A DNA stretch of 42,558 nucleotides from contig JARIAR010000021.1 in NCBI GenBank assembly GCA_029257805.1, positions 1 to 42,558 of the forward strand, written 5' to 3'. This document shows positions 31,042 to 42,558 of the stretch, in pieces. The first letter of the stretch is position 1; each line of letters begins with the position of its first letter. This stretch comes from Blautia sp. Its GTDB lineage: Bacteria > Bacillota > Clostridia > Lachnospirales > Lachnospiraceae. Under the pieces are notes generated by a model. The model was given only the letters and a program-made list of their open reading frames with translations. It was not told the origin of the DNA and did no database searches. The position numbers were made by a program, and so were the translations under genes.

Positions 31042-31659
31042 ATGGCAAATCGTATTGAAGGGTTTGATGAAAAAATACTGGAATATGCCCGAAAAGAGTT
31101 TCTTGAAAACGGTTTTGAATCTGCATCTCTCCGGGTAATTGCACAAAATGCCGGTGTGAGTACAAGTGCTATCTACACGCGATATGGAGACAAAGAGGGT
31201 CTTTATCGTTTTTTGATCCAGCCGGTTTCGGATGGTTTTCAAGAGATTGTAAAGTGTTCTCTGGGATATTTTACAGCTATGAGCAAGGAAGAACAGATTG
31301 AGCGATATAAGGAATATTCAGACAAGGGCTTTGAGGGAGCATTGTTGTTTATCTATGATCATTTTGACGAGTTCAAGTTGCTGATTAACTGTAATCATGG
31401 CACGATCTATCATGATTTTTTAGAAGAACTGGTTCACATCGACAATGTCTGTACATTAAATTTTTTGAAAACGATAGATAGTAAAGCATACAGAGACGGT
31501 CGAATTACAAATGGTTTTCTCCATGTTGTAGCCAGTTCCTTTTATTCGGGGCTGTTTGAGGTTGTGATTCATGAAATGACACTGGATGAGGCTCGAAGCT
31601 ATATTAATGAGCTGCGTATTTTCTTCAATAATGGATGGGCGGACTATTTAAAGAGTTGA
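31042..31659 (+). CDS. TetR/AcrR-family transcriptional regulator
   Basis: Cytoplasmic repressor of 205 residues. The N-terminal HTH (about 20-52) reads SLRVIAQNAGVSTSAIYTRYGDKEGL, the typical TetR pattern with YTRYGDKEGL at its end. The rest is the ligand-binding and dimerisation region, with no clear known ligand. GGGAGGTG precedes the ATG by 5 bases. Its promoter overlaps three 15-bp repeats, pointing to autoregulation. It is the first gene of a cassette with the KTR protein and the ABC and ECF transporters, so it may sense the imported molecule or a related stress. TetR proteins beside transporters often respond to the transported compound. Confidence 0.9.
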   Translation: MANRIEGFDEKILEYARKEFLENGFESASLRVIAQNAGVSTSAIYTRYGDKEGLYRFLIQPVSDGFQEIVKCSLGYFTAMSKEEQIERYKEYSDKGFEGALLFIYDHFDEFKLLINCNHGTIYHDFLEELVHIDNVCTLNFLKTIDSKAYRDGRITNGFLHVVASSFYSGLFEVVIHEMTLDEARSYINELRIFFNNGWADYLKS

Positions 31660-31672
31660 GAAAGGAAAAACT

Positions 31673-31882
31673 ATGCCAGAATTAGAAGTAATGATCGATA
31701 CTGACGGCTGGGTACTTTGCCCCTATTGCCGAAGTAAAAGCAAAACAAAGATTCGAAAAGACACATATCTCAAAAATTTTCCTCTCTTTTGCCCCAAGTG
31801 CAAGCGAGAAGTTCTGATCGACATTGATCAAAGTTATATAGGATTATCAATAGAGCGAGATGCTAAGACACAGAGCCGATAA
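31673..31882 (+). CDS. Cysteine-rich KTR-type small protein
   Basis: Protein of 69 residues with two CXXC pairs, CPYC and CPKC, probably a zinc ribbon, and the motif KTKIRKDTYLKNFPLF characteristic of the Cys_rich_KTR family (PF14205). Its function is unknown. From memory, members are often found on conjugative and other mobile elements in Firmicutes, which hints that the cassette was acquired. It lies 13 bases after the TetR gene and ends inside a terminator stem, so the two genes form a short operon. It may bind nucleic acid or a partner protein. Confidence 0.8.
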   Translation: MPELEVMIDTDGWVLCPYCRSKSKTKIRKDTYLKNFPLFCPKCKREVLIDIDQSYIGLSIERDAKTQSR

Positions 31883-31919
31883 TTCATCACGGAGAGATCC
31901 GGGTGTATTATCGGTTTTT
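31876..31919 (+). terminator. Intrinsic terminator overlapping the KTR stop
   Basis: CCGATAAT (31876-31883) pairs with ATTATCGG (31907-31914), with an inner stem CACGGA/TCCG and a GAGA loop, followed by TTTTTGTTTT. The TAA stop lies in the 5' arm. It separates the regulator pair from the transporter genes, or acts as an attenuator for read-through into them. Confidence 0.75.
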
Positions 31920-31923
31920 GTTT

Positions 31924-31948
31924 TATATTCAGGTTAGCTTATGCTAAC
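31924..31948 (+). promoter_or_regulatory. -10 box with inverted-repeat operator for transporter operon
   Basis: TATATT (31924-31929) is followed by GTTAGC-TTAT-GCTAAC (31933-31948), a perfect 6-bp inverted repeat just before the Shine-Dalgarno AAAGGAGGAG (31953-31962). The half-site AGGTTAG recalls DtxR/IdeR iron boxes, but the spacing between halves is longer than in the classical 19-mer, so the match is only suggestive. The -35 is poor. Confidence 0.5.
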
Positions 31949-31965
31949 TAAAAAAGGAGGAGATT

Positions 31966-33720
31966 ATGCAAACAAGTAAGAAAGAAAATCCTTTGGTCAG
32001 ATTAGGGAATCTGATCGGGGCGCAAAAATCAGGGTATGGCATCTCTGTATTGTTGGCTGTCCTTGGAGTTACCGCTGGAATCGTTCCCTATTTTGCTGTT
32101 GCAAAAATGATTGTAGCTTTGCTTACTGAAAATTCCGAAATCTATTTTTATATGATATGGTGTGGAGTTGCAGCAGGCGGGTATTTATTTAAGGTACTGT
32201 TTTCCATTTGGTCAACATCTATGTCTCACTCGGCAACGTATCTGGTGTTGAAAGATATTCGTAAACGGATGCTGACAAAACTGACGAAGCTTCCTATGGG
32301 TGTTATTTTGGATACTCCTTCTGGTAATCTGAAAAGCACAATTGTTGACCGTGTGGAGGGATTAGAAACCACGCTTGCCCACATGATCCCGGAATTATCT
32401 GCCAATGTTCTTGTACCGATCATTCTTATTATCTATGTGTTTGTTCTGGATTGGCGGATGGCATTGGTTACTTTGATTACCCTGCCTCTTGGTATGTGCT
32501 TTCTCATGATCATGTTTCGCACTTACCCTGCAAAATATGAAGGTTCGGTAATTGCCAGTAAAAAAATGAACGATGCTGTCGTAGAGTATGTGGGTGGTAT
32601 TGAGGTAATTAAGACTTTTAACCAGAATGCAAAATCCTATCAGAAATATGCGGATGCTGTCACCTATGACGCTTCCTATTATTATAACTGGATGAAGAGC
32701 TGCCAGTGGCCTATGGCTGCCTATACTGCAATTTGTCCGGCAACTTTACTGACGGTGCTCCCGGTTGGCTTACTGTTTTATCTGGGCGGAAGCCTTGCCG
32801 TAGCGGATTTTATTCAGATCATCATTGTTTCTCTGGGGATCATTGGTCCTATTTTGGCGGCAAGCAATTATATGGATAGTATTGCGGCTATGGGAACCAT
32901 AGTTGGTGAGATTTTTGCCATATTGGATGCCGGGGAATTGATTCGACCGGAAAACGATGCACCCATGAATGGCAATGGAATCGAATTAAAAGATGTAACT
33001 TTCTCGTACCATAAAACAGGAGAAGAGATTTTACACGGTATTAATCTTTCTATTCAGCCGGAAACAGTGAATGCTTTTGTAGGTCCCTCCGGCAGCGGTA
33101 AAAGCACCATTGCCAAATTGATTGCAGGTTTCTGGGATGTAGAGGGCGGTGATATTCAGTTTGGCGGAAGCAGTTTGAAAAAACTATCCCAGAAGCAGAT
33201 TTCTGAAAATATAGCGTATGTTTCCCAGGACAACTACCTGTTTGACGATACGATATTGGAAAATATCCGTATGGGAAAACAGAACGCAACAGACGAGGAG
33301 GTAATTGCTGCAGCAAAAGCTGTTGGCTGCGATGCCTTTATCCGTGGATTGGAGAACGGATATCATACAAGGGTAGGCGGTTCCGGCAGTCATCTGTCCG
33401 GAGGAGAACGCCAGCGAATTGCCATTGCCAGAGCTATGTTAAAGAATGCGCCTGTGATTATCCTGGATGAGGCAACTGCTTATCTGGATCCTGAAAATGA
33501 AGCAGTGATTCAAACAGCGATAGCTCAGCTGGTTAAGGGAAAAACGCTTATTGTAATTGCTCATCGTCTTTCCACTATTGTTAATTCCGATCAAATTTTT
33601 GTTGTCCATAATGGTCTGATTGAAAATCATGGAACCCACGAGGAGTTATTAAGCAAATGTGCACTGTATCAGCAAATGTGGAATGCACATGTGGGCGGAA
33701 AGGATGGTGAAACTGCATGA
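31966..33720 (+). CDS. ABC half-transporter with fused permease and ATPase (first of pair)
   Basis: Membrane protein of 584 residues. An exporter-fold six-helix domain occupies about 20-310; the ATPase from about 340 has Walker A GPSGSGKST, Q loop in VSQDNYLF, signature LSGGERQR, Walker B VIILDEAT and switch AHRL. All motifs are intact, so this half can hydrolyse ATP. It would form a heterodimer with the next protein, the gene overlapping by 4 bases. The pair resembles YbtP/YbtQ and IrtA/IrtB, exporter-fold proteins that import ferric siderophores. The presence of an ECF module in the same operon also favours import. Multidrug export is the alternative. AAAGGAGGAG precedes the ATG. Confidence 0.88.
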   Translation: MQTSKKENPLVRLGNLIGAQKSGYGISVLLAVLGVTAGIVPYFAVAKMIVALLTENSEIYFYMIWCGVAAGGYLFKVLFSIWSTSMSHSATYLVLKDIRKRMLTKLTKLPMGVILDTPSGNLKSTIVDRVEGLETTLAHMIPELSANVLVPIILIIYVFVLDWRMALVTLITLPLGMCFLMIMFRTYPAKYEGSVIASKKMNDAVVEYVGGIEVIKTFNQNAKSYQKYADAVTYDASYYYNWMKSCQWPMAAYTAICPATLLTVLPVGLLFYLGGSLAVADFIQIIIVSLGIIGPILAASNYMDSIAAMGTIVGEIFAILDAGELIRPENDAPMNGNGIELKDVTFSYHKTGEEILHGINLSIQPETVNAFVGPSGSGKSTIAKLIAGFWDVEGGDIQFGGSSLKKLSQKQISENIAYVSQDNYLFDDTILENIRMGKQNATDEEVIAAAKAVGCDAFIRGLENGYHTRVGGSGSHLSGGERQRIAIARAMLKNAPVIILDEATAYLDPENEAVIQTAIAQLVKGKTLIVIAHRLSTIVNSDQIFVVHNGLIENHGTHEELLSKCALYQQMWNAHVGGKDGETA

Positions 33721-35447
33721 TAAGTGTATTCAAAAAGATTTGGGATTTTTCCGGAAAGGAACAGCGTAATATCCGGAATTCCATTATTTGGGGATTTCTT
33801 AATGCGATTTTTCATGCGCTTCAAATCACTGCTCTTTTTGTTGTATTGAATGTTCTGGTTTCAGGAAACAGGGATCGAACTGCAGTCTGGATGTCGTTGG
33901 GGATCATGATTCTCAGTATTGCAGGCAAAATAGTCACACAGTATATTTCACAATTACAGCGTACCCATGCCGGTTATTTTATGGTTGCCGAAAAACGAAT
34001 TGGGATTGGCGAGAAATTAAAGATTGTTCCGATGGGATACTTTAATCAAAATAGCCTTGGCAACATTACAGCGGTAGCAACTACAATTTTAAGCGATGTG
34101 GAAAATGCTGCTCCTGTAGTGTTGGTCACTTCACTTGGTGGTTTTTTGAATTCCCTTGTTTTCAGTCTGGCAATGCTGGCAGTAGATGTTCGCATTGGCT
34201 TGATTGTTCTTGCAGGGATTGGGGTATTTCTGATGATCGTTGCGGCTATGGAACGAAAGTCAAGTGAAGATGTTCCAAAGAGGCAGGCTGCTCAAGGGAT
34301 TTTAGTGGAAGCTGTTTTGGAAACCATTCAGGGAATGAGTGTGATTAAAGCGTTCAATCTTGATTTCAACAAGGATAAAAAAGTAGATAAGGCTATTGAA
34401 GAAAGCTATCAAAAGAATCTGAAATTGGAAAAAGCGATGAACCCCTATGTGGCCTTGCAGCAGCTGGTACTGAATCTGTTCAGCGTTGTTATGATTTTTG
34501 CATCCATTGTGTTTTATCTGGATGGCACTCTTAGTCTGGTATATTGCCTGATGATGATGATTTCCTCTTTTATGGTGTATGAACAGCTGAAAGTTGCAGG
34601 CAGCAGTATGGCAAATCTCCGCATCACAGAGAACTCCATTAAAAAAGCCAATGAGATTGACCAGGTACCTACCATGGATATGGGGGGAGAAAAGATTGTT
34701 CCCCAATCGCATGATATTAAATTCGAAAAGGTTAGTTTTTCTTATGAGCAAAAAAGGGTTCTGGATGATATTAGTGTTACGATTCCGGATAAAAAGATGA
34801 CCGCTATTGTTGGAGCTTCTGGTTCAGGCAAGACCACGTTTTGTAATCTGATCGCCCGGTTCTGGGATACGGAAAGGGGCAGGGTGTCCATTGGCGGAAG
34901 AAATGTAAAGGATTATACGCTGGAGAGCCTTATGGATAACATCAGTATGGTGTTTCAGAATGTCTATTTATTTAATGACACGATTGAAAACAATATCAAA
35001 TTCGGCAGACCAGAAGCAACCCATGAGCAGGTGGTAGAAGCTGCAAGAAAAGCCTGCTGTGCAGAGTTTATCGAAGCGCTTCCGGATGGATATCAGACTA
35101 TGGTTGGTGAAGGCGGAGCCTCTTTGTCTGGTGGTGAGAAGCAGCGATTGTCTATTGCACGAGCGATGTTGAAAGATGCGCCTATTGTTATCTTTGACGA
35201 AGCCACTGCCAATATTGATCCGGAAAATGAAGATCGGCTGCAAAAGGCTATTGAAGCACTGACGGAAGATAAGACCATCATTATGATAGCCCACCGTCTT
35301 AAAACAGTTGAGCACGCTGATCAAATCCTTGTTATGGATCAGGGAAAGATCGTACAAAAAGGAACACATCAAGAGTTGGTTACAAAAACAGGAATCTATT
35401 CCGATTTCATCAGGCTGCGTAAGCAGGCGATTGGTTGGAAGTTGTAA
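33717..35447 (+). CDS. ABC half-transporter with fused permease and ATPase (second of pair)
   Basis: Partner of the preceding protein, 576 residues, with the same plan: six hydrophobic helices in about 15-290 and an ATPase with GASGSGKTT, VFQNVYLF, LSGGEKQR, IVIFDEAT and AHRL. Both halves therefore have consensus ATP sites, unlike exporters with one degenerate site. The start ATGA overlaps the previous stop. The next gene follows 17 bases later. The sequence does not tell the cargo; the pairing with ECF S, T and A genes is the main clue, and I infer a metallophore or other small molecule. Confidence 0.88.
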   Translation: MISVFKKIWDFSGKEQRNIRNSIIWGFLNAIFHALQITALFVVLNVLVSGNRDRTAVWMSLGIMILSIAGKIVTQYISQLQRTHAGYFMVAEKRIGIGEKLKIVPMGYFNQNSLGNITAVATTILSDVENAAPVVLVTSLGGFLNSLVFSLAMLAVDVRIGLIVLAGIGVFLMIVAAMERKSSEDVPKRQAAQGILVEAVLETIQGMSVIKAFNLDFNKDKKVDKAIEESYQKNLKLEKAMNPYVALQQLVLNLFSVVMIFASIVFYLDGTLSLVYCLMMMISSFMVYEQLKVAGSSMANLRITENSIKKANEIDQVPTMDMGGEKIVPQSHDIKFEKVSFSYEQKRVLDDISVTIPDKKMTAIVGASGSGKTTFCNLIARFWDTERGRVSIGGRNVKDYTLESLMDNISMVFQNVYLFNDTIENNIKFGRPEATHEQVVEAARKACCAEFIEALPDGYQTMVGEGGASLSGGEKQRLSIARAMLKDAPIVIFDEATANIDPENEDRLQKAIEALTEDKTIIMIAHRLKTVEHADQILVMDQGKIVQKGTHQELVTKTGIYSDFIRLRKQAIGWKL

Positions 35448-35464
35448 ATGGAAAGGAGTATTTT

Positions 35465-36052
35465 ATGAATAAGAAAAAATTGAACGCAAAAGATTTTATT
35501 AACATTGGTGTTTTTTCGGTACTGTATTTTATTATGTTCTTTATTGCAGGTATGATGGGCTACATTCCCATTTTTTCCATATTGATTCCGCTGGTATTGG
35601 GGATCCTGGGAGGCATTCCTTTTGTTCTCTTTTTGACAAAGACGCAAAAATTCGGTGCAGTTACGATTATGGGCATTCTTGTCAGTGTACTGTGCTTCCT
35701 GATGGGACAGAGTTGGATTTCTGTTATCTTTGGTATTGTATTTGGACTTTTGGCAGATTTAATCCTGAAAGCAGGGGAATATAAGAGCGCAAAGCATACG
35801 GTACTGGGCTACTGTGTGTTTACAGAATGGGTTATCGGTTCTATGCTGCCTATGTGGATCATGCGAGATGTGTTTTTTGAAAGCTATCTTAACAATGGCG
35901 GTACAGAGGAGTATATTAATGCCGTTATGAATTTGACGGCTGACTGGATGCTGCCTGTAGTAGTCCTGCTGGGTATTGTTGGAGGATTTGTTGGGGGGCT
36001 CCTTGGAAAAGCGGTGCTTAAAAAGCATTTTGTGAAAGCTGGTATTGTTTGA
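35465..36052 (+). CDS. MptD/Trep_Strep-type ECF transporter S component
   Basis: Substrate-binding membrane subunit of 195 residues with about five or six hydrophobic segments, a Gly-rich helix (LVLGILGGIPFVLFLTKTQ) and a C-terminal KAVLKKHF end. It resembles the MptD/TIGR02185 group of putative S components found with ECF A and T genes in Firmicutes. No substrate is established for the group. ATG 35465 is chosen over an in-frame ATG at 35447, because GGAAAGGAG lies just before it. Its stop overlaps the T-component start (TGATG). Confidence 0.82.
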   Translation: MNKKKLNAKDFINIGVFSVLYFIMFFIAGMMGYIPIFSILIPLVLGILGGIPFVLFLTKTQKFGAVTIMGILVSVLCFLMGQSWISVIFGIVFGLLADLILKAGEYKSAKHTVLGYCVFTEWVIGSMLPMWIMRDVFFESYLNNGGTEEYINAVMNLTADWMLPVVVLLGIVGGFVGGLLGKAVLKKHFVKAGIV

Positions 36053-36783
36053 TGAGGTCAGTGGATCGCTCTCATAAAGGATTCTGGTTAGATCCACGAA
36101 CAAAACTTTATCTTCTGGTAATGTTCAGTATTGTTATGCTGAATGCAAAAAATGATACCTTTGGTCTATGGTTCAAGCCGATGCTTGCATTCCTTCCCTT
36201 TGTGCTCCTGCTTAGCTGCAGGCGCACAAAGGCGGCATGGGTCTATGTGACTGCCTACTACATTTGTTGGGTGTCAGATCTGTATCTATTGAATCTTTTT
36301 CCGCCGGCACTGAAAATTATTCTTTCTCTGCTGACTCAGATGGCTACCCGCTGGATGCCGGGCGCCATGATGGGGTATTATTTTTTTGTTTCCACAAAAA
36401 TTAATGAGTTTACCCTTGCTATGTACCGCATGCATATTCCGGATGCTTTTGTAGTTCCGTTTTCAGTGATGTTTCGCTTTTTCCCTACTGTGCGTGAGGA
36501 AATGCAGGCAATTGGAAATGCTATGAAAATGCGTGGGATCGGGAAAGAAAGATTTTTCAAAAATCCTCAGGCAGCAATCGAATATCGATTGGTACCATTG
36601 ATGGTTTCCGTCACTACAATTGGAAATGAGCTTTCTGCAGCTGCCATAACAAGAGGACTTGGCAGCCATCACCATAGAACAAGTATCGGCAGCATCGGCT
36701 TTCGTATTGCAGACTGGATGTTTATTTTATCGGTGACAGGAATACTGCTGGCTTATGCCCTGCGGATAGGAGGCTTTTTATGA
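36052..36783 (+). CDS. ECF transporter T component (CbiQ/EcfT family)
   Basis: Membrane coupling subunit of 243 residues with about five or six hydrophobic helices. The conserved EcfT feature is seen near the end of the cytoplasmic region: a short Arg-containing helix in MKMRGIGKER (Ala-Arg-Gly type motif), followed by the second coupling stretch with AAAITRGLGSH. These helices dock into the ATPase pair. ATG 36052 overlaps the S-component stop; a TTG just before it is less likely. The gene ends in an ATGA overlap with the ATPase gene. It is a dedicated (group I) module because S, T and A lie together. Confidence 0.87.
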   Translation: MRSVDRSHKGFWLDPRTKLYLLVMFSIVMLNAKNDTFGLWFKPMLAFLPFVLLLSCRRTKAAWVYVTAYYICWVSDLYLLNLFPPALKIILSLLTQMATRWMPGAMMGYYFFVSTKINEFTLAMYRMHIPDAFVVPFSVMFRFFPTVREEMQAIGNAMKMRGIGKERFFKNPQAAIEYRLVPLMVSVTTIGNELSAAAITRGLGSHHHRTSIGSIGFRIADWMFILSVTGILLAYALRIGGFL

Positions 36784-38252
36784 TTCATTTTGAGGAGGTT
36801 ACCTTTCAATATGCCCAGGGAGATACAAGAGGTGGTGTTTTTGACATTGATCTTCACATTAAACCTGGAGAAGTTCTTTTGCTCTGTGGAGAATCCGGAT
36901 GTGGAAAAACAACGCTAACCCGTATGATCAATGGTCTTGTTCCCCATTATTATGAAGGGACAATGAAGGGAAATGTTTATGTGGATGGTGTTGATGTAAA
37001 AAACTCGTCTCTGTATGATTTGACGGATATTGTTGGTTCTGTATTTCAAAACCCGCGAACACAGTTTTTTACTCTGTGTTCTACAGACGAAATCGCTTTT
37101 GGTTGCGAAAACATCGGGCTTCCGAAAGACGAAATTTATAGACGGATCAATAAGGCGGTCCGTGAATTGAAAATTCAAAAGCTTTTAGACCGCAGTTTAT
37201 TTGCGTTGTCCGGGGGCGAAAAGCAAAAAATCGCCTGTGCATCTGTTTCGGCTATGGAACCGGATATTTTTGTTTTGGACGAGCCATCCTCCAATCTCGA
37301 TGTTGCTGCCATTGCGGATCTGAGAGAAGTCGTTGAAAAGTGGAAGTCCATGGGCAAAACGATCATTATTGCGGAGCATCGCCTCTACTATCTTATGGGA
37401 ATTGCAGACAGAGTTATTTACATGAAGAATGGACGAATTGCAAAGGATTTGTCTGCGGAAGGGTTTTCGGCTCTTTCGGAACAGGATCTGCGAAGGATGG
37501 GGCTGCGTTCTCTGCATCCCTCATTCACTTCAAGGCTTCCTGTAGCGGAAACCTGTAACGAATCTATTGAAATCAATGATTTTCATTTTTGCTATGGAAA
37601 AACAGAAGCATTGAACATTCCGAAACTCTCTATTCCAGGAGGCGCTATTGTAGGTATTCTTGGCGATAACGGAGCCGGCAAGACTACTTTTGCAAAATGT
37701 CTGTGTGGTCTGGAAAAATCTGCGGGAGGTACCTTGCGGATTGGCACGCAGTACTTCAATGCGAAGCAGCGTGTTCAAAAATGCTATATGGTCATGCAGG
37801 ATGTTAATCATCAACTCTTTACGGAAAGCGTAGAAGAGGAAATCCTGTTAAGTCTGCCGGGAGATGATGAGAACGCTGATAAAATGCAGATGGAGGTTAT
37901 CCTGTCTGATTTAAATTTATTAGAGTTTCAAAAGCTTCACCCGATGTCTCTTTCAGGTGGGCAAAAGCAGCGGGTAGCAATTGGGAGTGCCATTGCATCC
38001 GATAAAGAGGTTCTTGTTTTTGATGAACCCACAAGTGGATTGGATTATCGTCACATGATGGAAGTTGCTGAAAATCTGAGATCCCTGAGTAAAATGGGAA
38101 AGACGATTTTTGTAATCACCCACGATCCGGAACTGATTGCTCACTGCTGCAATTATTTTATGTTCATAGAACACGGAGAAATTCAATGGACAGGTGGCTG
38201 GACAGAGGAGAATAAGGAAAGACTGTTGACATTCTTTTTTGCAATACAGTGA
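36780..38252 (+). CDS. ECF transporter ATPase, fused A1-A2
   Basis: Cytoplasmic ATPase of 490 residues with two full nucleotide-binding domains in one chain. Domain 1: Walker A GESGCGKTT, signature LSGGEKQK, Walker B IFVLDEPSS, then EHRLYYL. Domain 2 (from about 260): GDNGAGKTT, LSGGQKQR and VLVFDEPTSG, then THDPE. Many ECF systems use two separate ATPases; the fused form is common in the MptD-linked group. It couples ATP use to the S and T components encoded upstream. A bidirectional terminator follows 53 bases after the stop, ending the cassette. Confidence 0.9.
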   Translation: MIHFEEVTFQYAQGDTRGGVFDIDLHIKPGEVLLLCGESGCGKTTLTRMINGLVPHYYEGTMKGNVYVDGVDVKNSSLYDLTDIVGSVFQNPRTQFFTLCSTDEIAFGCENIGLPKDEIYRRINKAVRELKIQKLLDRSLFALSGGEKQKIACASVSAMEPDIFVLDEPSSNLDVAAIADLREVVEKWKSMGKTIIIAEHRLYYLMGIADRVIYMKNGRIAKDLSAEGFSALSEQDLRRMGLRSLHPSFTSRLPVAETCNESIEINDFHFCYGKTEALNIPKLSIPGGAIVGILGDNGAGKTTFAKCLCGLEKSAGGTLRIGTQYFNAKQRVQKCYMVMQDVNHQLFTESVEEEILLSLPGDDENADKMQMEVILSDLNLLEFQKLHPMSLSGGQKQRVAIGSAIASDKEVLVFDEPTSGLDYRHMMEVAENLRSLSKMGKTIFVITHDPELIAHCCNYFMFIEHGEIQWTGGWTEENKERLLTFFFAIQ

Positions 38253-38304: not shown

Positions 38305-38340
38305 AAAAAATCCGACTGCATTACTACAGTCGGATTTTTT
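38305..38340. terminator. Bidirectional terminator between ECF and sulfur genes
   Basis: AAAAAATCCGACTG and CAGTCGGATTTTTT form a perfect 14-bp inverted repeat around 8 bases. The A and T tracts on both sides let it stop transcription from the cassette on the plus strand and from the CoA-disulfide reductase fusion on the minus strand. Confidence 0.92.
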
Positions 38341-38348
38341 ATATGTTA

Positions 38349-40931
38349 TTAGCAGGTTGCGCCGCCTTTTAAGTGTTTTTTAGCTGCAAGATTTTCGTTC
38401 TTGCGGTCAAGAAGACTGTCGGAAAGAAGCTGTTCCTGTACGTTTTCAAAACCGATTCGATTTACAGTATCTGCAAAACGTTCTCCGGTGATACCCTGTT
38501 CACGGAAAAGAAGGATTGCTTTTTCGATAATGTTCATAACTTCTTCTTTATCAGTAAAGATTTTGTCAAGATAACGTCCCTGTGCTACTTTTTTGCCCCA
38601 TCTTCCGCCGATGTAAATACGGTAGCCATCTGTAGAAGATTCAAAAGCTTTAAAGCGGCAGTTTCCAATACATCTTCCGCAATGGTTGCAGGCTTCCTGA
38701 TCAATTACGATCTTTCCGTCAACCATTTTTGCTGCGCCTACCGGACAGATCAGTTCAATTTTACATTTCTTACATCCGTGGCATTTATCCATATCTACAT
38801 CCGGGATACGCTGTCCTACAATACCAAGGTCGTTCAGGTCAGGTTTTACGCAGTTGTTTGGGCATCCTCCAACCGCAATTTTGAATTTATGTGGAAGGAG
38901 TACATTGTTATATCCCAGGAAGAAGCGTTCATGGATTTCCTCGGAAATTGCAAATGTATCAATTAATCCGTACTGACATGTGGTTCCTTTACAGGAAACA
39001 ACAGGACGAACTTTGGAGCCTGTTCCACCGGTCATAAGACCTGCCTGCATAAGGTATTCACGAAGTGCTTCAATATTTTCATAAGGAACACCCTGGATTT
39101 CCAGAGTAAGACGAGTTGTCATTGTAACTTCGCCGTTTCCGTAAAGCTGTGCAGCTTCTGTAACTGTACGCATTTCTTCCGCTGTGATCTTACCGTTTCT
39201 TGTAATAACACGACCGTTAAAAGTATTTCCTGTACGTTTATCTAATAAAAATCCAAATGCTTTTACTCTTTTGATCTCTTCTTCCGGAAGTTTTGATGCA
39301 ATATTTTTTACATGAACGTCATTGAAGAAGGAAGCGCCTTCCAGAACGAAAGTATTTGTATATCCAAAATGCTGAAGACGATTCTGAAGGAAGTAAGCAC
39401 GTTTTCCTTTTGCGCATACAAGAAGAAGTTTTTCGTCTTTTTCGATTCCAGGAATAGGACCATTTACTTCTGCAAGGTTAATAAAATCTGCACCGGGAAT
39501 GGATGGTGCAAGGTTTACATCAAGAATGCGGTAATCATCTGCCTGTCCGGCAAGATATTCAGAGGGTGTGATGCTTGTCATAGTTCCGTCTAATTTATTA
39601 AGGAGTATGTATACTGCCTGAACAAATGGATGGATTGCAGTGGAGAATGGCGGAGCATAAGCAAAGTCAGCATTTTCAAAATCTTCAAGAACGGCATCCA
39701 TGTTAATTCCCATTACTGCAATATCGATCATTTTATCTACAGCACCAGGTCCGAATACCTGAGCGCCCAGAAGTTTATGTGTTGTTTTATCTGCGATTAA
39801 TTTTGTGATAAAAAAGCCTGCATCCGGGTAGTAGTGTGCCTTGTCATCTGTTACAGAAAGTGCAGTGATCACATCGTAACCTGCTTCCCGTGCCTGAATT
39901 TCTGTAAGACCGGTACGTGCGCAATTCAGATCCGGAAGTTTACATACAGCTGTTCCCAGAACTCCTTTAAAAGATTTTTCTTTTCCTGCCAGTACCTGAG
40001 CGAGAGTACGTCCTTCCAGGTTTGCAGAAGAACCCATAGGAGCCCATTTGGCATCTCCTGTAATACGATTTTTTACCATGACGCAGTCGCCGGCAGCGTA
40101 AATGTCAGGGAGGTTTGTCTGCATTTTTTCATTTACAAAAATGGTTCCTTTGAACATTTCAATACCGGTGTCTGCAAGGAAGCCTGTGTTTGGACGGATT
40201 CCGGCTGCAACCGCAAGAATAGAACATGGAAGGAAGCCATTGCTTGTTTTTACTCCTGTAACCTGATCATTTCCAAGTACTTCTTCTGCTTTTACACCTG
40301 TGATCACGCGGATTCCGTTTTTCTGCAGGTGTTTTTTTACATAGAGAGCCATTTCAGGGTCCAGGATATTTGGCATTACCTGAGAAGCAATATCAATTAC
40401 GGTAACAGAAAGTCCCTGGGATTTCAGGTTTTCTGCGATTTCCAGACCGATAAATCCGGCACCGATCACGACTGCTTTCCGTGCATCATGTGTTTCGATA
40501 TAAGAACGCATGGAAACAGCGTCATCAGGAGTACGCATTTTAAATACACCGCTTTTCTCTACTCCCGGAATAGGGGGAATAACAGGAGATGCACCAGTTG
40601 CGATTACCAGCTGATCGTAAGAATAAGATTCTGTTTCGTTATTTTCCAGGTTTCTTGCCTGAACTGTTTTGGATGCAGGATCAAGACAGACGGCTTCTCT
40701 TCCTGTATAAACGGTAACGCCTGTAAGTCCGGAAAATTTTGCCGGTGTATTTACTACAAGTTCTTCACGGGTTTCAATAAGATTTCCCACATAGTAAGGA
40801 AGACCGCAGCCTGCATAGGAAATATCTTTGTCTTTTGTGATCAGAACAACTTCTGTATCACGATTTTCGCGTTTCAATTTGGCCGCTGTTTTTGTTCCGG
40901 CTGCGACGCCGCCGATGATGAGTACCTTCAT
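38349..40931 (-). CDS. CoA-disulfide/persulfide reductase-rhodanese-sulfite reductase-ferredoxin fusion
   Basis: Cytoplasmic redox enzyme of 860 residues. Residues 1-320: FAD/NAD(P)H disulfide oxidoreductase with GGVAAG (7-12), active-site C42 in YAGCGLP, the second nucleotide-binding motif VVIGAGFIG (154-162) and AAGDC; dimer domain to about 450. Residues 465-540: rhodanese with C506 in LVCAKGKRA. Residues 575-705: a sulfite/nitrite reductase half with C647-X4-C652 and C690-X3-C694, a siroheme/4Fe-4S set, though E. coli CysI uses X5. Residues 711-760: two 4Fe-4S ferredoxin motifs (C717, C720, C723, C729; C748, C751, C754, C758). The last residue is C860. CoADR-rhodanese fusions reduce persulfides; the added part suggests electron flow from NAD(P)H to a sulfur oxyanion or sulfane sulfur. 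GGAGG precedes the ATG, 22 bases after the LysR gene. Confidence 0.9.
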   Translation of the reverse strand: MKVLIIGGVAAGTKTAAKLKRENRDTEVVLITKDKDISYAGCGLPYYVGNLIETREELVVNTPAKFSGLTGVTVYTGREAVCLDPASKTVQARNLENNETESYSYDQLVIATGASPVIPPIPGVEKSGVFKMRTPDDAVSMRSYIETHDARKAVVIGAGFIGLEIAENLKSQGLSVTVIDIASQVMPNILDPEMALYVKKHLQKNGIRVITGVKAEEVLGNDQVTGVKTSNGFLPCSILAVAAGIRPNTGFLADTGIEMFKGTIFVNEKMQTNLPDIYAAGDCVMVKNRITGDAKWAPMGSSANLEGRTLAQVLAGKEKSFKGVLGTAVCKLPDLNCARTGLTEIQAREAGYDVITALSVTDDKAHYYPDAGFFITKLIADKTTHKLLGAQVFGPGAVDKMIDIAVMGINMDAVLEDFENADFAYAPPFSTAIHPFVQAVYILLNKLDGTMTSITPSEYLAGQADDYRILDVNLAPSIPGADFINLAEVNGPIPGIEKDEKLLLVCAKGKRAYFLQNRLQHFGYTNTFVLEGASFFNDVHVKNIASKLPEEEIKRVKAFGFLLDKRTGNTFNGRVITRNGKITAEEMRTVTEAAQLYGNGEVTMTTRLTLEIQGVPYENIEALREYLMQAGLMTGGTGSKVRPVVSCKGTTCQYGLIDTFAISEEIHERFFLGYNNVLLPHKFKIAVGGCPNNCVKPDLNDLGIVGQRIPDVDMDKCHGCKKCKIELICPVGAAKMVDGKIVIDQEACNHCGRCIGNCRFKAFESSTDGYRIYIGGRWGKKVAQGRYLDKIFTDKEEVMNIIEKAILLFREQGITGERFADTVNRIGFENVQEQLLSDSLLDRKNENLAAKKHLKGGATC

Positions 40932-40953
40932 GCGTTGACCTCCATTTGCTTTG

Positions 40954-41850
40954 TCATAGAAAATAGACTTCCTTGTTCTTTTTTAGTTTTTCATAAATTT
41001 CGAGGTAATGGTTATTGAAAATGCTGTTTTCCCGCCAGATAAAAGTGAAGTCGTGAACAATATCCAAATCCTCCATTTGTATTTCGCACAATGTTCCTTC
41101 TGCCAGTTCTTTTTTTACAGCAGTCCGATAAAGAAAAGAAATTCCGCAGCCCTGTTCTACAAGTTGTTTGATCAATCCAATACTGCCTGTTTCTACAAGA
41201 GAATCAAAACTTTCTACCTGAACCCCTTTCATCTGCAGATAATGTTCCAGGATATTTCGGGAACCGGAACCTGCTTCACGGGTGATCAGCCTGTGAGAGA
41301 GGAGATCATCCAAAGAGTATGTTCCTTCTGCAAGGGAATCTTTCGGAGAGCAGACGGCAATATATCGTTCGTGTGTGTAAAGTTCGTGGTGGTAAATATT
41401 TCTTGGAAAGTTTCCTTCTATCAGAGCAAAATCAATTTTACCGTCTTCCAGTTCCTGAAGAAGCTCCTCTGTATTTGCAACAGAAAGATGAAGAGAAGCA
41501 GAGGGGTAATAATTTAAGTAAGCTGCGGCAATTCCCGGAATTTCGAATTCTGCTATTGTGAGTGTGAGTCCCATTTTAATCAGTTGATTTTTGGTACTTT
41601 TTCTCATTTTTTCTTTTAAGGCGAGTATGTCGTGATGCATGGTTGCTGCAGAGTTTTTCAGCATTTCTCCTGCAGGAGTCAGCTGCATTTTCTTTCCTTT
41701 ACAGGTGAAAAGCGGGACACCGTAAGCTTCCTCCAGCCATCGTATATGCTGGGAGACTGCAGGTTGTGTCATATTCAGTCGCTGAGCTGCGTGAGTAAAA
41801 TTCAGATCCTTACATACTTCTAAAAAGGTTTCCACTCTAAAATCTAGCAT
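40954..41850 (-). CDS. LysR-family transcriptional regulator
   Basis: DNA-binding regulator of 298 residues. The N-terminal winged helix (about 1-60: LDFRVETFLEVCKDLNFTHAAQRLNMTQPAVSQH in part) is standard, followed by a periplasmic-binding-like effector domain with RYIAVCSP and LITREAGSGSR. The length is the family norm. ATG 41850 is chosen because the protein then begins MLDFRVETFL; an upstream in-frame start at 41892 lies above the predicted -10. It is co-directional with the sulfur-redox fusion and likely in one operon, so its effector may be a sulfur compound such as sulfite, sulfide or O-acetylserine. Inverted repeats upstream are likely its own sites. Confidence 0.9.
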   Translation of the reverse strand: MLDFRVETFLEVCKDLNFTHAAQRLNMTQPAVSQHIRWLEEAYGVPLFTCKGKKMQLTPAGEMLKNSAATMHHDILALKEKMRKSTKNQLIKMGLTLTIAEFEIPGIAAAYLNYYPSASLHLSVANTEELLQELEDGKIDFALIEGNFPRNIYHHELYTHERYIAVCSPKDSLAEGTYSLDDLLSHRLITREAGSGSRNILEHYLQMKGVQVESFDSLVETGSIGLIKQLVEQGCGISFLYRTAVKKELAEGTLCEIQMEDLDIVHDFTFIWRENSIFNNHYLEIYEKLKKNKEVYFL

Positions 41851-41994: not shown

Positions 41995-42028
41995 AAAAAA
42001 AACCCCGATCCGGAAGGACCAGGGTTTT
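41995..42028 (-). terminator. Intrinsic terminator of the rubrerythrin gene
   Basis: On the minus strand, AAAACCC and GGGGTTTT with an inner GGTCC/GGATC pairing are followed by a T tract, 36 bases after the rubrerythrin stop. A small CACTCT/AGAGTG hairpin lies between at 42037-42053. The region from 41948 to 41994 holds nothing I can identify. Confidence 0.8.
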
Positions 42029-42063: not shown

Positions 42064-42558
42064 TTAGCCGAAGTATCTTTCAAGAAGACCTTTGAATGCT
42101 TTTCCGTGTCTTGCTTCGTCTTTTGCCATTTCATGAACAGTGTCATGGATTGCGTCAAGGTTTGCAGCTTTTGCACGTTTTGCAAGATCAAATTTACCAG
42201 CAGTAGCGCCGTTCTCTGCAGCTACACGCATTTCCAGGTTTTTCTTTGTGCTGTCTGTTACAACTTCGCCTAATAATTCAGCGAATTTTGCAGCGTGTTC
42301 TGCTTCTTCAAGAGCAGCTTTTTCCCAGTATAATCCGATTTCCGGATATCCTTCTCTGTGAGCAACTCTGGACATAGCCAGGTACATACCAACTTCAGAA
42401 CATTCACCTTCAAAGTTTGCTCTTAAGTCTGCAAGGATATCTTCGCTTACACCTTTTGCGATGCCTACTACATGTTCAGCAGCCCAGGACATTTCAGAAT
42501 CCTGTTTGGAAAATTTCTCAGCCGGTGCCTTACATACTGGACATACCTCCGGTGCTGT
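42064..42558 (-). CDS. Reverse rubrerythrin, 5' end outside the window
   Basis: Oxygen-stress protein, cut by the window edge on its N-terminal side. The visible part reads [15 protein letters not shown] first, the second half of a rubredoxin-like Fe(Cys)4 knuckle, then a four-helix diiron domain with paired E and EXXH motifs: [17 protein letters not shown] and [10 protein letters not shown]. Rubredoxin in front of the diiron domain defines the reverse rubrerythrin class of anaerobic clostridia, which act as NADH-linked peroxidase or oxygen reductase. The reading frame stays open through 42558 above an internal Met at 42492, so that Met is not the start. It is followed by its own terminator, and belongs with the sulfur and oxygen defence of an anaerobe. 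Confidence 0.92.

Follow-up and report, generated by a model that had tools for sequence, protein, structure and literature searches.

We found that a single gene in a Blautia species of the family Lachnospiraceae encodes, in one continuous chain, a coenzyme A (CoA)-persulfide reductase half of the Npsr type followed by a siroheme sulfite-reductase half. The gene lies at positions 38349–40931, on the minus strand, of contig JARIAR010000021.1 (assembly GCA_029257805.1), of which positions 1–42,558 were analyzed and are referred to as the window. Its open reading frame, whose content was read from Pfam matches and structure models, begins with ATG, contains no internal stop and specifies 860 amino acids; a ribosome-binding-site-like GGAGG, read directly from the sequence, precedes it (40939–40943, minus strand). 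Taken as a whole, the results are best explained by a putatively cytoplasmic sulfur reductase that depends on NAD(P)H and passes sulfur between its two active sites, both of them intact, a reading that we hold with moderate confidence.

The original prediction had described a sulfur redox enzyme of four parts in one chain, and this architecture was borne out by domain search and structure prediction. The first 287 residues match a flavin adenine dinucleotide (FAD) and NAD(P)H binding domain (40071–40931, on the minus strand like all further features of the gene; Pyr_redox_2, 216 bits), and residues 330–433 a dimerization domain (39633–39944; Pyr_redox_dim, 62 bits), both over the cut-off. The rhodanese domain, at residues 468–532 (39336–39530), carries C506 in the motif CAKGKRA; it scored 22.0 bits, just under the cut-off of 22.2, although the stretch can be aligned with the rhodanese domains of solved Npsr and CoA-persulfide reductase (CoAPR) proteins. 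The predicted structure of residues 1–538 superposes on AfNpsr. The second half begins with the ferredoxin-like half domain of sulfite and nitrite reductases (residues 565–628, 39048–39239; NIR_SIR_ferr, 52 bits), which contains R574 and R607, and continues with the siroheme and 4Fe-4S domain (residues 638–835, 38427–39020; NIR_SIR, 106 bits), which contains R642, C647-X4-C652, K682, K684 and C690-X3-C694; these scores too are over the cut-offs. Pfam, alignment and conservation place an inserted ferredoxin motif for two 4Fe-4S clusters between C717 and C758 (38658–38783), where Fer4_6 matched residues 740–762 with 35 bits, over its cut-off, and the two-cluster model Fer4_10 reached 24.3 bits, under its cut-off of 25.5. 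The two structure models, one of the full-length protein and one of the sulfite-reductase half alone, are cofactor-free monomers with predicted template modeling scores of 0.75 and 0.88.

The same arrangement recurs in relatives. We surveyed 200 genomes of the family, one per genus and with the window's genome counted, and obtained 18 full-length matches; a check of reading frames identified 15 single fused genes (window counted) and 14 loci at which two genes lie side by side. When named genomes were scanned, the best 80 of at least 590 relatives, a sample biased to full-length fusions, were loci that all match from residue 1, 2 or 3 to residue 860. Among these, 79 are free of stops and one, L142, has two in-frame stops; the carriers include Blautia, Mediterraneibacter, Eisenbergiella tayi, Fournierella massiliensis, Pseudoflavonifractor, Gemmiger, Angelakisella, Drancourtella and uncultured relatives. 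Because the 15 family frames and the 79 named-genome matches provide so many independent single frames, an assembly artefact or a chance join is ruled out, and the four-part single-chain enzyme is confirmed as real. The earlier expectation that no separate subunits are needed holds for the window's genome and its fused relatives but not elsewhere, the halves being adjacent genes at the 14 split family loci. At E 1e-40, the sulfite-reductase half was found in 76 of 391 genomes of the class, the weakest matches being AsrC-like by identity; of the 81 match rows, one is the window, 56 regions were examined, down to E = 2e-69, and the other 24 rows have 34–42% identity. On a careful tree of 92 rows, from which four long or odd rows (L225, L235, L240 and L241) were left out and whose bootstrap is not settled, the fused rows are not gathered in a single clade, and five changes are needed. 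The distance matrices of the two halves correlate at 0.78 over 47 loci, a value matched in none of 2000 permutations; the two halves have been inherited jointly.

Residue conservation in both halves rules out that they are vestigial. The two redox cysteines named in the original prediction stand where it had placed them: C42 (codon 40806–40808), in the motif SYAGCGLPYY, is invariant in all 30 N-terminal halves aligned, and C506 is present in 29, the remaining one being lost to a contig end. Each motif occurs in 78 of the 80 named-genome relatives. The sulfite-binding residues of Fsr are R355, R423, K460 and K462, and its assimilatory-type residue is R388 (PMC10229431). As we read the alignment, these correspond to R574, R642, K682, K684 and R607. 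None of the five varies in any of the 96 relatives, and the same holds for the siroheme-cluster cysteines C647, C652, C690 and C694 and the ferredoxin cysteines C717, C720, C723, C729, C748, C751, C754 and C758. From these residues and from the genomic context, the second half would bind siroheme. We consider it very likely that both sites work in sulfur reduction, and probable that sulfite is the main substrate.

The first siroheme-cluster cysteine pair has the spacing CX4C rather than the usual CX5C, followed by CX3C, in all 96 relatives. CX5C was found in 18 of 18 proteins from the same bacterial family, which comprised AsrC-like proteins and proteins of a second class of about 330 amino acids. 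Since CX5C is also the spacing in Fsr, CX4C seems to mark a distinct clade. The original prediction was right in its architecture; it had overlooked both this spacing and the cysteine at the C-terminus. A further spacing, CX2CX2CX5CP, was seen in the first ferredoxin cluster motif (window 38745–38783, residues 717–729); its last cysteine lies two residues further than in Fsr, and the spacing is common to all 37 rows aligned.

Alignments of relatives and the structure models delimit a C-terminal tail, GGATC (residues 856–860, 38352–38366), that ends in C860. The first 15 fused proteins aligned all end in GGATC, and so do 78 of the 80 named-genome relatives, the other two ending in GGASC and GGAKC. 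Split sulfite-reductase genes adjoining an Npsr gene have the same or nearly the same end (GGAKC, GGASC, GGAQC), and solo sulfite-reductase genes usually lack the tail. Across 96 rows, from which L209 (broken frame) and L067 (frames masked when open reading frames were selected) had been dropped beforehand, a cysteine ends the protein in all 50 partnered rows that could be scored, versus 4 of 44 solo rows. In this count, the partnered L025 (contig edge) and L215 (frame running into other sequence near a contig end) were left unscored, L056 was scored as partnered because its genome has the other half on a different contig (L057), and L061 has its partner next door. The terminal cysteine is associated with the Npsr partner. 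An unlinked partner hidden in the solo genomes was rejected as an explanation: a search at E 1e-90 gave matches of only 33–38% identity in 17 of the 44 and none in 27, seven of the 44 genomes missing the 90% completeness or 5% contamination mark. On the careful tree there are 13 partner changes and 14 tail changes, and 12 can be placed by parsimony on shared branches; the tail pattern used there, [GT]AxC, excludes L223, whereas the 4 of 44 uses the looser rule that the last residue is cysteine. Four partner contrasts lie on firmly supported branches, and over 200 random pairings the tail differed in the same direction in 3.8 of the four, in the opposite direction in 0 and not at all in 0.2. 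In the full-length model, residues 857–860 have a predicted local distance difference test score (pLDDT) below 50, as expected of a mobile arm.

Some relatives depart from this layout. L208:174–1205 is a solo sulfite reductase with, by eye, an N-terminal rhodanese-like remnant and the end GGAASL; it looks like a decayed fusion that has lost the Npsr half and the terminal cysteine. N-terminal extensions take the place of Npsr at L212:3268–4617, where the sulfite-reductase half is fused to a C_GCAxxG_C_C putative redox domain, and at L200:5030–6436 and L072:2853–4211, the latter two being alike by eye.

The genomic context points to siroheme and to sulfite. Of the 32 family genomes that have the pair, 29 carry a siroheme-synthase N-domain, versus 8 of 104 without any NIR_SIR protein (Fisher p 5e-19, a guide only because the genomes are related), and siroheme or haem pathway genes adjoin the gene in L038, L048, L054, L055 and L058. 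The window's genome has a siroheme-synthase domain, and no further NIR_SIR protein was found in it. Neighbors were counted at 91 of the 96 loci, with gene centers within 6.5 kb and many loci shortened by contig ends; they were clustered by similarity, and a counted LysR gene is not necessarily an orthologue. A LysR gene is nearby at 22 of the 31 split loci, at 7 of the 20 fused ones and at 9 of the 40 solo ones, and a YeiH-like gene at 10 of 31 split and 1 of 40 solo loci. The YeiE and TIGR00698 scores of example neighbors are under the curated cut-offs, and those for PF03601 are over. In the window, a LysR-type regulator gene lies 22 bases upstream of the fusion gene (40954–41850, minus strand); its nearest families are selenium-associated LysR and YeiE, both under the cut-off. 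YeiE binds sulfite in Cronobacter, and in Salmonella it activates yeiH, a gene that sulfite resistance requires there (PMC12880088). The complete sulfite-binding site, the siroheme synthase, and the YeiE-like regulator and YeiH-like transporters beside split relatives are thus in line with the sulfite-reductase half that had been predicted. A search of the window's genome for PF01507 (3'-phosphoadenosine 5'-phosphosulfate (PAPS) reductase/CysD) at E 0.001 gave no match and was positive in 14 of 14 controls. This result argues, weakly because the genome is 94.7% complete, against sulfate assimilation as the sulfite source, and so the sulfite probably comes from outside.

A mechanism can be proposed on this basis. 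Sulfite would be bound and reduced at the siroheme-[4Fe-4S] center, which the two further 4Fe-4S clusters would feed. Either C860 of the mobile tail or bound CoA would then take over sulfur at the zero-valent level and bring it to the Npsr half, from which C42, FAD and NAD(P)H would release it as sulfide. Sulfane sulfur enters CoAPR at the rhodanese cysteine; bound CoA has been proposed to carry it, by a swing, to C42, which lies 26.6 Å from C508', and NAD(P)H acts through FAD to yield sulfide (PMC9405070). For the idea that CoA-binding residues have been lost and that the tail stands in for CoA, no list of such residues turned up in the papers searched. This chemistry, combined with a sulfite reductase that ends in cysteine, suggests that C860 might serve as a second arm, which would unload sulfur from the siroheme and present it to C506, CoA or C42. 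Assimilatory sulfite reductases have been reported to release zero-valent sulfur directly (PMC13188885), which would make a sulfur-accepting partner useful. The rhodanese cysteine C506 may also admit sulfane sulfur from outside, for example the outer sulfur of thiosulfate, the remaining sulfite going to the siroheme. A linear path from NAD(P)H through FAD, C42, C506 and the clusters to siroheme, as proposed in the original prediction, is not supported: in characterized CoAPR, the persulfide of the rhodanese cysteine moves on to CoA and C42, in the direction of the flavin, and the cysteine sends no electrons to clusters (PMC9405070). The likely role of the enzyme, under the control of a LysR regulator that senses sulfite, would be to clear external sulfite or thiosulfate and to get rid of reductant. 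That C860 is a sulfur or thiol relay has, in our view, slightly less than an even chance. More tentative is the specific form in which C860 is a built-in DsrC-like carrier, the siroheme stopping at the zero-valent level, the C860 persulfide passing to the CoA-persulfide reductase of the same dimer, and NADH completing the reduction; we regard this as possible but doubtful.

Several observations weigh against the transfer of sulfur between two sites, or against sulfite as its source. R388 of Fsr, the counterpart of R607, is counted as a mark of full six-electron reduction without intermediates (PMC10229431), and with such a reduction a relay would be needless. The terminal cysteine occurs without a partner in L212 (GGATC), L226 (SGATC), L225 (TATC), which is also one of the rows left out of the tree, and L223 (a short end, LLC). 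The parsimony count behind the 12 joint changes favors coincidence, and the well-supported contrasts number only four (median p 0.125), too few to reach significance. In the model of the sulfite-reductase half alone, the last ten residues have an average pLDDT of 70, with no stretch below 50. Three of the 32 partnered genomes (G051, G173 and G186) show no siroheme-synthase domain, none of the 20 fused loci has a YeiH-like gene nearby, and in Salmonella the sulfite reductases are dispensable for sulfite resistance (PMC12880088).

The principal alternative is a plain NAD(P)H-dependent sulfite reductase, in which, as in NirB or Fsr, FAD would supply the siroheme with electrons by way of the two ferredoxin clusters, and the rhodanese and the tail cysteines would be structural or serve in docking. 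Such a path does not explain why C42 (30 of 30) and C506 (29 of 30) stay invariant or why the terminal cysteine is present in all 50 scorable partnered rows, including fused ones that need no docking peptide. As the tail is retained in chains that are already fused, it is less likely that it serves only to dock a separate partner, and we consider the plain reductase unlikely, if still a serious contender.

A thiosulfate reductase is an alternative that is compatible with the two-site sulfur reductase preferred here: the rhodanese would split thiosulfate into a protein persulfide and sulfite, and two electrons at the Npsr half and six at the siroheme would yield two sulfides. Separate rhodaneses and AsrABC have been proposed to reduce thiosulfate in this way in Halanaerobium, which on thiosulfate makes more sulfide and has three rhodaneses and AsrA up and AsrB down (PMC5497025). 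The fusion holds both functions with intact residues, and the missing PAPS-reductase/CysD match, with the probably external sulfite that it implies, agrees with this idea. However, sulfite is what the linked regulator and the YeiH-like genes suggest, and no thiosulfate transporter was recognized among the neighbors identified, no search having been aimed at one. With a rhodanese preference for thiosulfate or polysulfide that is not readable from sequence, we judge this role somewhat improbable. A function mainly in nitrite or selenite reduction, with the sulfite-reductase fold shared, appears very improbable. Many sulfite reductases also reduce nitrite in a side reaction (PMC10229431), a 300-amino-acid protein of Acididesulfobacillus with the same two siroheme domains has been proposed to be a nitrite reductase (PMC10949509), and the LysR protein is nearest to a selenium-associated family, under that family's cut-off. 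Nevertheless, the persulfide-reductase partner, the rhodanese and the YeiH-like neighbors match sulfur chemistry and would serve no evident purpose in reducing nitrite.

The window genes that adjoin the fusion are those for the LysR regulator, a rubrerythrin-like protein and ATP-binding cassette (ABC) proteins. The rubrerythrin-like gene (42064–42558) lies upstream, its start cut by the contig end, and is separated from lysR by a terminator-like hairpin of 13 pairs (41999–42028, minus strand). A second terminator-like hairpin (38305–38340, listed on the plus strand without a strand assignment) lies between the 3' ends of the fusion gene and a convergent ABC gene; both hairpins are consensus matches only. 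The converging cluster (31042–38252) encodes a TetR-like protein, two ABC proteins (one of exporter type) and what looks like an energy-coupling-factor-type importer, made up of a Trep_Strep membrane protein, a CbiQ-like protein and a double ABC ATPase; no sulfur link was seen in the genes of 31042–38252. Among the relatives, a FecBCD-type ABC importer is found near the sulfite reductase of this clade (binding-protein cluster at 28 of 91 loci, permease cluster at 27 of 91), both with and without an Npsr partner, for example at L040, L046, L050, L051, L185, L195, L197, L203 and L216–L218; iron, haem, corrinoid and siroheme are candidates for its cargo.

Sulfate and taurine respirers, together with the breakdown of cysteine, are usually regarded as the sources of hydrogen sulfide in the gut. 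The fusion is a likely sulfite- or thiosulfate-to-sulfide machine in gut Clostridia, including Blautia, Mediterraneibacter, Eisenbergiella, Fournierella, Pseudoflavonifractor and others, and it would escape searches that accept only matches over the cut-off to DsrB or AsrC models. Because the terminal cysteine is gained and lost largely together with the persulfide reductase, the family provides a natural experiment on the way in which a siroheme reductase gives up its sulfur. If C860 were indeed a carrier, a single polypeptide would take sulfite to sulfide without DsrC, and this pathway, marked by CX4C, would be widespread among fermenting Clostridia of the gut.

Each half of the protein is already known, and their combination was not found among the open-access matches listed, where we recognized no description of the same architecture. 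The nearest published fusions seen are Fsr, the haloarchaeal NirA-rhodanese proteins (PMC11237513) and DsrE-Npsr-TusA (PMC7887784). Residues 1–538 resemble Npsr, CoAPR and CoADR-RHD (6PFZ, 8A56, 3ICR–3ICT, 3NTA) in fold, C42 and the rhodanese cysteine, with 35–37% identity to 8A56 and 6PFZ by structural alignment, and show the features of Npsr: the FAD/NAD(P)H fold, the dimerization and rhodanese domains, the single cysteine by FAD and the rhodanese cysteine. However, the solved members end after the rhodanese, whereas here about 320 further residues of siroheme sulfite reductase follow. Residues 564–834 have the general features of siroheme sulfite reductases, namely the sulfite-binding Arg/Lys set and the four cluster cysteines, and resemble Fsr in fold, in those Arg and Lys residues, in the inserted two-cluster ferredoxin and in one reductase repeat per chain. 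They differ in that the electron module of Fsr is an F420H2 oxidase (FrhB-like) and not an Npsr-like N-terminal half, in that Fsr has CX5CXnCX3C and the 96 relatives CX4C...CX3C, and in the added C-terminal cysteine tail. Scores fell under the cut-offs for the CoA-disulfide reductase equivalog TIGR03385 (386 bits against 578.8), AsrC TIGR02912 (116 against 324.1; AsrC-like proteins also have CX5C) and NirB TIGR02374 (237 against 578.35), and two defining Fsr features are lacking, so the protein belongs to none of these four. NirB joins an FAD/NADH module and a siroheme module in one chain and, to our knowledge, has neither a rhodanese nor CoA-persulfide chemistry. The features of Group III Dsr-LP were found, as described in PMC3448663: one siroheme repeat with peripheral and additional 4Fe-4S clusters, which in Dsr-LP and AsrC, as here, amounts to one NIR_SIR repeat and two extra 4Fe-4S clusters.

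In DsrAB systems, DsrC carries sulfur on its C-terminal arm. Pfam showed no DsrC domain in the 860-residue chain; here, the reductase itself carries the tail, as a short extension.
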